Assembly: GCA_019685555.1 (NCBI GenBank)
Contig: JABFQN010000013.1
Span: forward strand, 1 to 45,040
Length of the DNA: 45,040 bases
Origin: Candidatus Bathyarchaeota archaeon A05DMB-3
GTDB taxonomy: Archaea; Thermoproteota; Bathyarchaeia; Bathyarchaeales; Bathycorpusculaceae
Reading direction: 5' to 3'
Part shown: one piece after another, positions 6,931 to 12,243 of the stretch
Layout of the letters: each line of letters begins with the position of its first letter
Numbering within the stretch: the first letter of the stretch is position 1
Program-made: the position numbers and the translations under genes
The notes under the pieces: generated by a model
The model's input: only the letters and a program-made list of their open reading frames with translations
What the model was told of the DNA's origin: nothing
Database searches by the model: none

Positions 6931-8133
6931 ATGGAAAGCTTTAACCCGAAAAAGTTTGTTGAAACGCAGATTGGAGAAATACGGAAAGCCATCGGCAATG
7001 AAAAAGCCCTAGTAGCTGTTTCCGGCGGCGTCGACAGCACCACATGCGCTGTTTTGACACGGAAAGCCATAGGAGAAAACCTAATCTGCATAATCTTAGA
7101 CGACGCTTTCATGCGGGAGGGCGAACCTGAAAAAGTGGCTGAAATCCTTTCAAAAGAACCTTTTAATGTGTCCGTTAAAATAGTTGATGTTCGGGAACGC
7201 TTTCTAAATGCCATGAAAGGATTAAGGGACGCTGAGGAAAAAAGGAAGAGGTTCCGTGAAACCTTCTACAACGTTTTAAGCGAAACTGCCAAAAAAGAAA
7301 ACTGCCGCGTTTTGGTGCAAGGCACAATCCGCGCTGATGTGGTGGAAACAGTTGGCGGCGTGAAAACACAGCACAATGTTCTCGAGCAGATAGGCATAAA
7401 CCCCATGGAAAAGTTCGGCTTCAAAGTTGTTGAACCATTGTTAACGCTTTACAAAGAGCAAGTGCGCATGGTCGCCAGACATTTAGGCTTACCCCCAGAA
7501 GTTTCTGAAAGGCAACCTTTCCCAGGTCCAGGACTGTCGGTACGAGTTGTCGGCGAAATCCGCCTTGACAAGCTAGACGCTTTAAAAAAGGCGACAACAA
7601 TAGTTGAAAATGCCCTTGTGGAGCACAAGCCAAACCAGTATTTCGCCGCAATAATCGACAACGAAGAATTACCAGCAGAACCTTCAATGTCGCATGTGCA
7701 GGAGACTGCGGCGCGCCTTCTTAATGTGCCCTCAAGAAATGTTTACGTGAAAGTTTTCAGAGACAAAGCAACAGGGGTAAAGGGCGGCGAAAGGCGCTAC
7801 GGCAAAATAATAGGTATAAAAGTTGAAACTGTAAACGGGAAAGCTTACCAAGCATCCATTCAGAAACTTGTCTCTTTACAGGCGAAAATAACCACTGAGA
7901 GTCCCTCTATCTCAAGGATTCTCTACGCTGTTCAAGACACGTTTGAAAAGAAGCCCTATGTTGTTAGTATAAGAGCTGTTCAGACAAAGGATTTCTTAAC
8001 AGCACAAGTTTCAGAAATACCTTGGAAAACCCTTGAAAAGGCTGCCTCTGAAATTCTTGAAAAATGCAAAAATGTTTCAACAGTATATTATGATGTTACC
8101 CCCAAACCGCCGGCAACCATCGAAATGGAGTAA
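6931..8133 (+). CDS. guaA: GMP synthetase ATP-pyrophosphatase subunit with doubled dimerisation region
   Basis: A protein of 400 residues that adenylates XMP and aminates it to GMP with ammonia from a separate glutaminase subunit, which is not in this window. The PP-loop SGGVDS is at 31-36; QGTIRADVVE and PFPGPGLSVRV are the XMP-binding landmarks; the C-terminus ends with the family's KPPATIE-x-E. Archaeal stand-alone subunits are usually about 310 residues. The surplus of about 90 lies before the final domain and contains a second G-G-E-R-R-Y...ISRILY unit resembling the terminal dimerisation domain. Eukaryotic GMP synthetases also carry two such domains. The ATG at 6931 is preceded by GGAGTGG. 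Confidence 0.92.
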   Translation: MESFNPKKFVETQIGEIRKAIGNEKALVAVSGGVDSTTCAVLTRKAIGENLICIILDDAFMREGEPEKVAEILSKEPFNVSVKIVDVRERFLNAMKGLRDAEEKRKRFRETFYNVLSETAKKENCRVLVQGTIRADVVETVGGVKTQHNVLEQIGINPMEKFGFKVVEPLLTLYKEQVRMVARHLGLPPEVSERQPFPGPGLSVRVVGEIRLDKLDALKKATTIVENALVEHKPNQYFAAIIDNEELPAEPSMSHVQETAARLLNVPSRNVYVKVFRDKATGVKGGERRYGKIIGIKVETVNGKAYQASIQKLVSLQAKITTESPSISRILYAVQDTFEKKPYVVSIRAVQTKDFLTAQVSEIPWKTLEKAASEILEKCKNVSTVYYDVTPKPPATIEME

Positions 8134-8206: not shown

Positions 8207-8539
8207 ATGCGTATGTTCCGCGTTAGAGTAAACAAGATAGAGTCTATTCGCGATATTGACGGTAATCTTGGAAAACGTATTGAACTTGTTGAGGAACGCC
8301 AAATCCCCCAGTTCGCCATCAGACCCCAAAGTGAAGAGGCAAAGGTTGTGCAAGAAGTCTTTCAGACTTTGCAGCAGCAACTGCCCATCTTTCCAGCTAG
8401 AACGCAGTTCGCAGTTCCAAAGATAATATTGTTTTTAACTGAGCAGGAATATGAAAGCCTAGGCATAGACTTTGACGTTAATCAGGTTTATGAGATAACC
8501 CTTGAAAATCAAACCATAAAGTTTAGGAAAACTGTATAA
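8207..8539 (+). CDS. Conserved archaeal protein, possibly arcadin-1-like
   Basis: A protein of 110 residues, beta-rich and without membrane segments. It begins with a strand of the form FRVRVNKIESIRD, a glycine turn DGNLGKRIELVEERQ, a helix around 43-60, and ends with a strand DVNQVYEITLENQTIKF. Plan and size recall arcadin-1, a small protein of the crenactin cytoskeleton cluster, but no actin-like gene is near, so this is only a suggestion. ATG 8207 or ATG 8213 may be the start. It converges with the next gene, overlapping by 17 bases at the 3' end. Confidence 0.65.
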   Translation: MRMFRVRVNKIESIRDIDGNLGKRIELVEERQIPQFAIRPQSEEAKVVQEVFQTLQQQLPIFPARTQFAVPKIILFLTEQEYESLGIDFDVNQVYEITLENQTIKFRKTV

Positions 8540-9790: not shown

Positions 9791-10828
9791 TTGATTGAAA
9801 TCGATGGAAGCCGAAAAAGTGGAAGCGGCACAATTCTTAGGCTTTCAGTAGCCCTATCCTCGATACTGGGGCAACCGCTACACATATACAACATTAGACA
9901 GAACAGACCACAGCCAGGCTTAAGACCCCAACATTTGGAGGCTGTTTTAACAGCAGCGAAACTCTGCGAAGCCAAAGTGGAAGGTGCAGTTTTAAACTCA
10001 CGGGAACTCTGGTTTAAGCCGAAAAGGGTTATAGGCGGAAAGTTCGAGGCTGAAATTGGCACTGCTGGAAGCATTCCTATGTTGATAATGACGGTTTTGC
10101 CCATATGCATATTCGCCGAGAACACTGTTCAACTTCATGTTTTAAAGGGCGGAACAGATGTTTCCCACTCACCCACAATAAACTACATGCGACAAGTGTT
10201 CCTTCCAGTTCTGAAGCGAATGGGCATAAACGCCAACATCACCGTCCACAAGTATGGTTATTATCCTAAAGGCATGGGAGAAGCGACACTAACCGTTGAG
10301 CCTTGCAAAGAGCTTAAACCACTACATATGGAAGAGTTCGGCACATTAAAAGCCATTAAAGGAATTTCGGTGTGCACTTTTCTAGCAGACAGAAGGGTTG
10401 CTGAACGCCAAGCAACAGCGGCAAACAACTATCTTAGAGAGCGCGGATTAGCCGCGCAAATCCAAACCCTAAATGATCGGTCAAATCCGCTGCAGAAGGG
10501 CAGTTCCATAGTTTTGTGGGCTGAAACCGAAAAAGGCGCACTGTTAGGCGCAGACGCTATAGGAGAACTTCGGAAAACAAGCGAAACTGTCGGGGTGGAG
10601 GCAGCTGAAAAGCTTTACGCGGAGATTTCTTCTAGAGCTACTGTTGACGTGCATTTAGCTGACATGCTTATCCCATATGTGGCGTTGGCAAGAGGCAGAT
10701 CAGCATATCTAGCAAGGGCTTTATCTGACCATTTGGAAACAAACATTTGGCTTGCCGAAACCCTTCTAGGGGTTAAGTTCAAAGTTGAAAAGGTTAATGG
10801 GCTTTACAAAATTGAAAAGGTCGATTAG
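9791..10828 (+). CDS. rtcA: RNA 3'-terminal phosphate cyclase
   Basis: A protein of 345 residues that converts RNA 3'-phosphate ends to 2',3'-cyclic phosphates through an AMP-enzyme intermediate. The N-terminus IEIDGSRKSGSGTILR, the RPQPGLRPQH loop (about 37-46), the KGGTDVSHSP stretch (about 119-128) and the PKGMGEA turn are characteristic. The AMP-accepting histidine is His314 in SDHLETN. Length is normal. A TTG start at 9791 is used. FAU-1 begins 2 bases after its stop, so two RNA-processing genes form an operon, probably continued by pyrC and the Mut7-C gene. Confidence 0.94.
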   Translation: MIEIDGSRKSGSGTILRLSVALSSILGQPLHIYNIRQNRPQPGLRPQHLEAVLTAAKLCEAKVEGAVLNSRELWFKPKRVIGGKFEAEIGTAGSIPMLIMTVLPICIFAENTVQLHVLKGGTDVSHSPTINYMRQVFLPVLKRMGINANITVHKYGYYPKGMGEATLTVEPCKELKPLHMEEFGTLKAIKGISVCTFLADRRVAERQATAANNYLRERGLAAQIQTLNDRSNPLQKGSSIVLWAETEKGALLGADAIGELRKTSETVGVEAAEKLYAEISSRATVDVHLADMLIPYVALARGRSAYLARALSDHLETNIWLAETLLGVKFKVEKVNGLYKIEKVD

Positions 10829-10830
10829 CC

Positions 10831-12243
10831 TTGAGGGCTAAGGTTAGGGGAATATACACAACAGCCTTAACACGGCTGCTTCTGGAAAACGGCTTCCAAA
10901 TAGTTCAGCCTTCCCAAGCCATAAAAAACCGCTTCGGCATTCCAGACTGCAACGAGCCTCCAGACATCAAAATAAAGGACAGATACGACCTCCAAGGAGT
11001 TAAAGCGATAGGCACTGCTGAAGCAATAGCCAAATTCCAGTCTACTGTGCATGCAGCGCTTGAAGATGCCGTAACTAGAAAATGGAACATAAGCGTCGAC
11101 GGCATATACAAAGGCAACATCGTAGGCGAAAATGAAAACGCTGTTTACGTTCAAATAGAAAACGGAATCGTTGGGGCGCTTCCAAAACACGAAGCACCAA
11201 ACCGAGACAAAGACAAAATTATTGTTCAAATTCAACGGAAGCGAATGGGCAGAAAAACCCCAGTTTTAACAACACAGCTTAAAATTGTTGGAAACTACGC
11301 CATACTAGTGCAGAAAAGCAACGTTGGCGTGAGCCTACAAATCCGTGACATAAAAAAACGAGCAGAACTTTACGCTTTAGGAAAGCAGTTGTCGCCGGAG
11401 GATTGGGGAATTATTTGGCGAGAACCAGCCGCCCACAAGTCAAAAGATGTTTTAGAAAACGAAATAACAGCCCTTGTCAGAAAAGTCAAAACTTTAAACG
11501 AGAAGGCATCATCCGCGAGCGCTTCATCCCTTCTTGTTGAAGGTTCATATTTTATGGATGTCGAGTTTCCCTATGCCTCAAAGAGGAAAATGGACATGTT
11601 AAGGGCTTCTGTTACGCCAACCATCGATGGGCATCATTTTTACAAAAGTTGCGGAGGCAAAGTTTCAGCTGCCTTGGAATCGGCGGAAAAACTTTTGGAG
11701 AAAGGACAAAGCCTAGGCGAAGTTGAGGAGCTTTTTAAAAGGCAAATTCAGCTAGAGTTTCCAGAAGAAGGTTCGATTGTGAACGTGGAGCATGTGAAGC
11801 TGAGCGGTGCAGTTTTCCACCTTGGACAAGCAGTCCTAGAAGCCATAAACAGGGGAGAAATCCGATATAGCAGAACCATTAAAGCGGATGGCTTTTACGA
11901 CGGGTTAGGCGTAGCAAAAGAGGCTGGCGACAAAGCAGCAAGCGAAACAAAACCTGGCAAATGGTACATCACAACAAACTATTACTCGAAGGATGGAGAA
12001 TGGAAGGGAACATACATAAACATAAACACACCTGTGGAAATTTATCCAAATACGATACGCTACATAGACTTAGAAGTTGATGTGTGCGTTCGCACAAACA
12101 GCGAAACCAAAATCTTAGACATGGAAAAACTTGAAAAAGCCATGGAAAAAGGTATTATCAGCCGCACATTATTTGAAAAGATTAAAGCAAACGCTGAGGA
12201 AATCGCCAAAAGTAAGTCCTACGGCAACCTAGCCAACTTTTAA
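10831..12243 (+). CDS. FAU-1 family RNA-binding protein / probable ribonuclease with DUF402 domain
   Basis: A protein of 470 residues. The N-terminal third resembles the S1-like RNA-binding part of RNase E/G (about 85-160, with IYKGNIVGENENAVYVQI and GIVGALP). The C-terminal part is a DUF402 domain (about 345-425) with YSRTIKADGFYDGLGVAKE, the TNYYSKDGEWKGTYIN strand pair and RYIDLEVDV. The archaeal FAU-1/AU-1 family has been linked to binding of AU-rich RNA and 5S rRNA processing; here that role is by family only. TTG start at 10831, 2 bases after rtcA. Confidence 0.9.
   Translation: MRAKVRGIYTTALTRLLLENGFQIVQPSQAIKNRFGIPDCNEPPDIKIKDRYDLQGVKAIGTAEAIAKFQSTVHAALEDAVTRKWNISVDGIYKGNIVGENENAVYVQIENGIVGALPKHEAPNRDKDKIIVQIQRKRMGRKTPVLTTQLKIVGNYAILVQKSNVGVSLQIRDIKKRAELYALGKQLSPEDWGIIWREPAAHKSKDVLENEITALVRKVKTLNEKASSASASSLLVEGSYFMDVEFPYASKRKMDMLRASVTPTIDGHHFYKSCGGKVSAALESAEKLLEKGQSLGEVEELFKRQIQLEFPEEGSIVNVEHVKLSGAVFHLGQAVLEAINRGEIRYSRTIKADGFYDGLGVAKEAGDKAASETKPGKWYITTNYYSKDGEWKGTYININTPVEIYPNTIRYIDLEVDVCVRTNSETKILDMEKLEKAMEKGIISRTLFEKIKANAEEIAKSKSYGNLANF

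Follow-up and report, generated by a model that had tools for sequence, protein, structure and literature searches.

The archaeal gene at positions 6931 to 8133 of the window (the whole 45,040-nucleotide stretch analyzed here) encodes a GMP synthetase ATP-pyrophosphatase (ATPPase) subunit whose translated sequence carries two GMP_synt_C dimerization domains in tandem. Probably, the first copy (D1) pairs with the second (D2) within one chain, making the protein a pseudo-dimer with one site. The protein is ordinary as a GMP synthetase and notable for contradicting recent statements on where this duplication occurs. The gene sits on contig 17 of the window genome (G000; 96% complete), which belongs to the Bathyarchaeia, a class of the Thermoproteota in GTDB. 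The features discussed below, all on the plus strand, are as follows.

6931-8133, +: gene for the GMP synthetase ATPPase subunit, long form with D1 and D2, 400 amino acids (open reading frame, homology)
6931-7545, +: PP-loop ATPPase core, residues 1 to 205 (SGGVDS at 31 to 36, PFPGPGL at 196 to 202)
7360-7377, +: lid-loop motif VKTQHN, residues 144 to 149 (Gln147 replaces the first His of IK(T/S)HHN)
7564-7626, +: linker helix from core to D1, residues 212 to 232 (AlphaFold model)
7636-7938, +: D1, first dimerization domain, residues ~236 to 336, without the C-terminal XMP loop (PF00958, profile-profile comparison, AlphaFold secondary structure)
7792-7794, +: Arg288 codon in D1, equivalent to Methanocaldococcus jannaschii Arg249 (Arg in 74 of 74 long forms)
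7915-7917, +: Arg329 codon in D1, equivalent to M. jannaschii Arg294 (56 Arg and 18 His among 74)
7957-8130, +: D2, second dimerization domain, residues 343 to 400, without the leading hairpin (PF00958, AlphaFold, profile-profile comparison)
8080-8082, +: Thr384 codon in D2, the trans-acting arginine position of single-domain enzymes (Arg in 4 of 74 long forms)
8104-8130, +: XMP-binding C-terminal loop KPPATIEME, residues 392 to 400, in D2 only (K392, E398 and E400 in 74 of 74)

A preliminary description had proposed a 400-residue subunit with an added segment at this place, and the open reading frame was found as claimed. It begins at the ATPPase core, leaving no place for a glutaminase in the same chain. 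The protein scores 85.2 bits against PF00958 (cut-off, 27) and 298.4 bits, in three stretches, against NCBIfam TIGR00884 (curated cut-off, 338.75). Its top solved relatives by sequence are the ATPPase subunits of M. jannaschii (6JP9) and Pyrococcus horikoshii (2DPL), and named relatives with 66 to 86% identity are found on seven contigs, six of them titled Bathyarchaeota.

Seventy-three bases downstream of the gene, at 8207 to 8539 (+), lies an open reading frame for a 110-residue Arcadin_1 protein (PF18653; E = 2e-25), a family that we take to be a partner of the archaeal actin crenactin. A search of the window genome with the Actin model (PF00022, at 0.001), which matched only 6 of 14 control genomes, gave no match. 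Further along, a gene at 10831 to 12243 (+) encodes a 470-residue protein with RNase E/G-like and DUF402 domains, and it adjoins an RNA 3'-phosphate cyclase gene at 9791 to 10828.

The added segment resembles the terminal domain that follows it, as had been proposed. PF00958 matches the protein twice, at nucleotides 7744 to 7935 (profile positions 16 to 83; 23 bits, or 27.3 with neighbors, against the cut-off of 27) and at 7954 to 8127 (profile positions 35 to 92; 68 bits). In profile-profile alignments (hhalign) built from 74 long forms and 56 single-domain rows, one of which (L137) is a long form truncated by its contig, D1 matched the ordinary single C domain with E = 2.6e-18, D2 matched it with E = 8.7e-31, and the two copies matched each other with E = 2e-5. 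All 18 control comparisons with a segment of the ATPPase core gave E values of 0.029 or worse, so the repeat exceeds what chance would produce. The same values rule out the segment being an unrelated insertion. The two copies are incomplete in complementary ways: D1 is without the C-terminal XMP loop, and D2 is without the TGVKGD-R-YG hairpin.

An AlphaFold model built from a 24-row alignment (A1) had a mean pLDDT of 91.1 and a pTM of 0.89. In this model, D1 runs strand-helix-strand-strand-helix-strand and D2 consists of strands and one helix. The proposed likeness to human D1 and D2 was recovered from this confident model: it aligned with the human structure (2VXO) over 348 residues at 2.9 Å (VIA-align), whereas the 14 other GMP synthetase rows covered 272 to 299 residues. 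Likewise, query-normalized Foldseek TM scores were 0.71 to 0.72 for the two human chains, and the remaining GMP synthetase chains in the 50 matches listed scored 0.53 to 0.66. The human enzyme is, among the matches listed, the sole solved GMP synthetase that aligns with most of the extra segment. Its VIA-align Z score (27.6) is nonetheless below those of 12 of the 14 other GMP synthetase rows (range, 25.7 to 32.6), so the likeness consists of extra coverage and not of a closer overall fold. A search of the PDB with the D1 profile gave no special link to human D1: the human enzyme came twelfth with 21.9 bits, and M. jannaschii scored 47.1 bits as a whole sequence and 34.6 bits for its C domain.

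We then considered which residues each copy has kept, using a 2023 review (PMC10526850) and a 2022 study (PMC9312489), both cited throughout from excerpts. In M. jannaschii, where the enzyme is a dimer, XMP bound to one chain has its phosphate contacted by Arg249 of the other, whose Arg294 forms a salt bridge with Glu308 of the first; in Plasmodium falciparum, mutating the equivalent of Arg294, of Lys302 or of Glu308 abolished activity (PMC10526850). Residues were tallied over 74 distinct long forms from fetched loci, which represent 27 coded families and one uncoded locus and over-represent Bathyarchaeota-type genomes (21 are in family f1); matches weaker than 1e-30, pieces without SGGVDS (e.g., L029 and L040) and L137 were left out. 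Arg288 in D1 is Arg in all 74, and at the Arg329 position 56 have Arg and 18 have His. The D2 counterpart of Arg329 (the T384 column) is Arg in only 4 of 74 long forms versus 48 of 55 single-domain enzymes. The XMP-site equivalents of M. jannaschii Arg102, Lys302, Glu308 and Glu310 (R105 and, in the D2 loop, K392, E398 and E400) are each present in all 74. Across the 28 groups, R288 and the loop residues are constant; at the R329 position, 19 groups have Arg, 7 have His and 2 are mixed, and the T384 column is Arg throughout in 3.

Either copy thus retains residues that are missing from the other, which fits D1-D2 pairing. Ordinary subunits pair as two chains through the C-terminal domain, with arginines from the partner completing each XMP site. 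In the long form, superposition on the human structure suggests a contact between D1 and D2 of the same chain, where D1 probably packs on D2 as a partner's domain would. D1 would provide Arg288 and Arg329, and D2 would provide the C-terminal loop that grips XMP, so that one chain would make one complete site and dimerization would be unneeded, as in human GMP synthetase. The long form is presumably a monomer and an active enzyme. It is improbable that the subunit is still a homodimer, with D1 serving stability, regulation or glutaminase docking and not self-pairing. The human enzyme, a monomer in solution, does crystallize as a dimer (PMC9312489), so extra interfaces exist in the fold, and a variant in which D1 is swapped onto the D2 of a neighboring chain would fit the residue pattern too. 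Yet the arginine of a D2-D2 contact is mostly gone (Arg in 4 of 74) and the hairpin arginine is missing from D2, while D1 keeps Arg in 74 of 74 at one position and Arg or His at the other.

The core of the long form also departs from the published motif. In place of two consecutive lid-loop histidines the window protein has VKTQHN. All 74 long forms have Gln147, as do 17 of 21 stand-alone single-domain subunits but none of 34 fused single-domain enzymes; Arg109 is distributed similarly (74 of 74, 15 of 21 and 0 of 34). The IK(T/S)HHN lid motif is called invariant in GMP synthetases in the excerpted review (PMC10526850), a statement that the long-form glutamine, as read from translated genes, contradicts. 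Replacement of the lid-loop His by Ala greatly impaired the P. falciparum enzyme (PMC10526850), and since this is the position occupied by Gln in the long forms, their catalysis may differ.

The preliminary description had taken archaeal subunits to be about 310 residues long with one dimerization domain, which is true for M. jannaschii and P. horikoshii but not for this phylum. Among 397 genomes of the one phylum, each at least 90% complete, the long form was found with profile A3 in at least 99, spread over 28 of 66 coded families (matches of 1.7e-130 or better running to the profile end). It occurs in 26 of 26 genomes of family f32. One of the 99 (G033) has its start cut by a contig end, and partial pieces in three further genomes (G104, G135 and G309) lie outside the count. 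Next below the 99, among the matches listed, come two contig-cut pieces and then mostly single-domain matches together with two fused D1-D2 proteins. This spread and the seven named contigs rule out a form limited to the lineage of the window or an assembly error. For orientation, Sulfolobus subunit B database entries are near 370 residues, so the length as such is on public view.

The two fused proteins, from genomes G233 and G263, carry GATase, ATPPase, D1 and D2 in one chain of 586 and 580 residues, respectively.

L119, 2416-4176, +: fused GATase-ATPPase-D1-D2 (genome G233), human domain order
L120, 852-2594, -: fused GATase-ATPPase-D1-D2 (genome G263), human domain order

They are the only ones among the long proteins collected with a glutaminase in the same chain. 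Their best matches are fused single-domain enzymes, with the human enzyme eleventh, and a model of L119 (pLDDT, 80.5) aligned with the human enzyme over 482 residues at 8.6 Å versus 433 to 477 residues for 12 other fused rows, which does not set the human enzyme apart. Two open reading frames directly upstream of L120 may be PurP-like.

These distributions bear on the published record. According to the excerpts, D1 is absent from archaeal GMP synthetases (PMC10526850), and the extra domain, surveyed in 42 proteomes, has a single origin, in the ancestor of certain eukaryotes, and is systematically missing from ensemble B, archaea included (PMC9312489). The stated absence of D1 from archaea is contradicted by the long form, which at least 99 of 397 genomes carry. 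The excerpted 2022 study also appears, from its wording, to have found no species with both enzyme types (PMC9312489); the window genome holds a D1-D2 enzyme and a single-domain enzyme together. Judged by titles and the starts of abstracts, the archaeal long form was not described in the literature searched. It is not touched on in the available passages on guaA and guaB of PMC3261824, and a literature search for GMP synthetase with Asgard returned only a Chlamydia paper.

We next asked what supplies the long form with nitrogen. In many relatives, a glutaminase open reading frame lies inside the fetched flanks of the long form (12 families), and in genomes such as G096, G150, G221, G232 and G126 a glutaminase frame of 189 to 219 residues adjoins the gene. 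In family f32, a glutaminase was found in 10 of 11 genomes checked, and in the four whose positions were compared it lies far from the long-form gene. Because a glutaminase gene adjoins the subunit in many relatives, GMP synthesis is likely to be the ancestral job of the long subunit. The window genome has another arrangement. Its sole TIGR00888 match lies in a fused 522-residue open frame on contig C10, which is 41% identical to the window protein over residues 7 to 245, and no stand-alone GuaA-type glutaminase was found with TIGR00888 in this 96% complete genome; two other GATase-family matches are one in a 555-residue open reading frame and a weak one. The long form of the window genome is thus an orphan beside a second, fused GMP synthetase. 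With no partner found there and a separate fused enzyme present, the long form may use free ammonia or a borrowed glutaminase; isolated ATPPase subunits accept ammonia in vitro (PMC10526850, excerpts).

At most 18 of 78 long-form genomes have no TIGR00888 match at 1e-30, an upper bound given that G271 has an adjoining 185-residue glutaminase-like open reading frame and G398 has a frame-split one. G058 has a 216-residue frame scoring 86 bits against a cut-off of 172, a kind that also occurs alongside an intact fused enzyme, and G237, G373 and G418 have frames of about 200 residues with weak partial likeness to glutaminase. In five genomes, a full-length long form stands beside a relic of the fused enzyme: the last 52 residues in G020, residues 9 to 41 followed by 427 to 518 in G042, residues 2 to 63 and 400 to 511 in G324, residues 1 to 40 in G376, and, in G312, a copy that several frame changes interrupt. 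Two further cases are read with caution, as the fused gene of G260 is cut by a contig end and the one frame change in that of G026 could be a sequencing error. Fused GuaA relics with large deletions, each with a full-length long form in the same genome, were located as follows.

L144, 2998-3153: relic of fused GuaA
L150, 986-1339: relic of fused GuaA

As these relics accompany full-length long forms, it seems that the long subunit, supplied with ammonia, can sustain GMP synthesis with no need of the fused enzyme. Four Gln-type single-domain subunits from the family and order of the window (L129, L132, L133 and L134) also have no glutaminase open reading frame in their fetched flanks, which speaks against tying the orphan state to the duplication. 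Three genomes of the window's family encode stand-alone His-His single-domain subunits (L128, L130 and L131) with an adjoining glutaminase frame of 203 to 211 residues, and G022 has such a His-His subunit/glutaminase pair plus a long form.

Where a fused GMP synthetase co-occurs, the long form might act on another substrate and not be a GMP synthetase at all. The replacement of the first lid-loop His by Gln, seen in all 74 long forms, would suit this, as would the window genome, in which neither a stand-alone GuaA-type glutaminase nor a full-length IMP dehydrogenase was found (PF00478 gave a 42-position match in a 380-residue open reading frame). Full-length IMP dehydrogenase was found with PF00478 in 4 of 20 genomes searched; this model found 14 of 14 control genomes, of which TIGR01302 at 1e-40 missed 3. 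We consider another substrate unlikely: the XMP-site residues checked are all retained, the same clade has an adjoining glutaminase gene in many lineages, and in several relatives that keep the long form, the fused enzyme has decayed to a relic.

The preliminary description had pointed to the two dimerization domains of human GMP synthetase, which both excerpted sources bear out (PMC9312489 and PMC10526850), and had raised the choice between shared ancestry and independent duplication. We lean, from sequence comparisons, toward a duplication independent of the eukaryotic one, and for the core an independent history is likewise somewhat favored. In a core tree of 86 rows, two clades were resolved (100/99), one with all long forms and the Gln-type single-domain subunits, the other with the fused, bacterial, M. 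jannaschii, P. horikoshii, human and L119/L120 rows. The human enzyme, which was the sole ensemble A sequence in the trees (the genomes searched all lying within one phylum), grouped with bacterial enzymes (96/79), although the positions of the human and L119/L120 rows are not firm. All three have His and Gly at the positions of Gln147 and Arg109 of the long forms. AU tests did not reject the long forms as one clade (P = 0.365), the human enzyme with L119/L120 (P = 0.058), the human enzyme with all Gln-type rows (P = 0.40) or L119/L120 with all Gln-type rows (P = 0.526; 1.49 log units better than the free tree).

Somewhat less probable is shared ancestry, with a single origin of the D1-D2 tandem: archaea of this phylum and the ancestor of ensemble A eukaryotes would then have it by inheritance or by transfer of a C-terminal cassette from one to the other. 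The domains themselves lend it support. Human D1 scored 21.6 bits on the archaeal D1 profile versus 12.3 on the single-domain profile (a difference of 9.3 bits), and human D2 scored 46.4 on the archaeal D2 profile versus 39.3 (7.1 bits); together with the four L119/L120 domains, they favor the archaeal D1/D2 profiles by 7 to 24 bits, while 10 of 10 single-domain rows scored favored their own profile, three of the ten being in its training set. The free domain tree placed the D2 of the human enzyme and of L119/L120 within archaeal D2 (99/90), and one branch (100/99) had all 35 D1 rows on the same side, in trees that rest on 72 columns, too few to decide. Against this, placing human D2 with bacterial and eukaryotic single domains improved slightly on the fit of the free tree (by 1.24 log units; P = 0.531), and a sister pairing of human D1 and D2 was not rejected (P = 0.354). 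The His and Gly of the human core also stand against Gln and Arg in 74 of 74 long forms, and human D2, by our reading of the sequence, appears to retain a leading helix and strand that are missing from archaeal D2. A tree constrained to unite the human enzyme with the long forms is 30.4 log units worse but not rejected (P = 0.138), and the long forms plus L119/L120 as one clade are rejected (P = 0.029).

More tentatively still, and building on the independent origin that we prefer, the one-chain pseudo-dimer could have arisen at least twice, in this phylum and in eukaryotes, with the fused archaeal enzymes as a possible third case. The pseudo-dimeric subunit would then have become glutaminase-free and ammonia-fed in several Bathyarchaeota-type lineages, displacing the fused enzyme whose relics remain. 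The archaeal long form is another natural experiment in turning a homodimer into a single chain, with a readable trace of complementary loss, and the long form and fused-enzyme relics in the same genomes make the loss of glutaminase in GMP synthesis directly testable.

The stand-alone subunits of M. jannaschii (6JP9) and P. horikoshii (2DPL/3A4I) share the core and XMP loop with the window protein and are its top sequence matches and among its top fold matches. They differ in having one dimerization domain in 308 to 310 residues and forming a dimer (PMC10526850, excerpts), in a His-His lid motif, where the window protein has Gln-His, and in belonging to the other core clade. The fused single-domain GuaA on contig C10 has a homologous core and C domain and belongs to the same reaction family, but unlike the long form it carries a fused glutaminase and one C domain and falls in the other core clade. 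L119 and L120 share the D1-D2 tandem, with Arg at both trans positions of D1 and the own arginine of D2 lost (Phe); unlike the long forms, they have a fused glutaminase, a His-His lid motif and a C-terminal Ile instead of Glu. The human enzyme (ensemble A; 2VXO) resembles the window protein in carrying D1 and D2 after the core on a single chain, with the XMP-contacting Arg524 in D1 and the C-terminal loop in D2. It differs in its fused glutaminase, its His-His lid motif, an insert of 128 residues (PMC10526850, excerpts) versus ~50 to 85 in long forms, and a D2 that retains its own arginine in ISRIMY, which long-form D2 has mostly lost.
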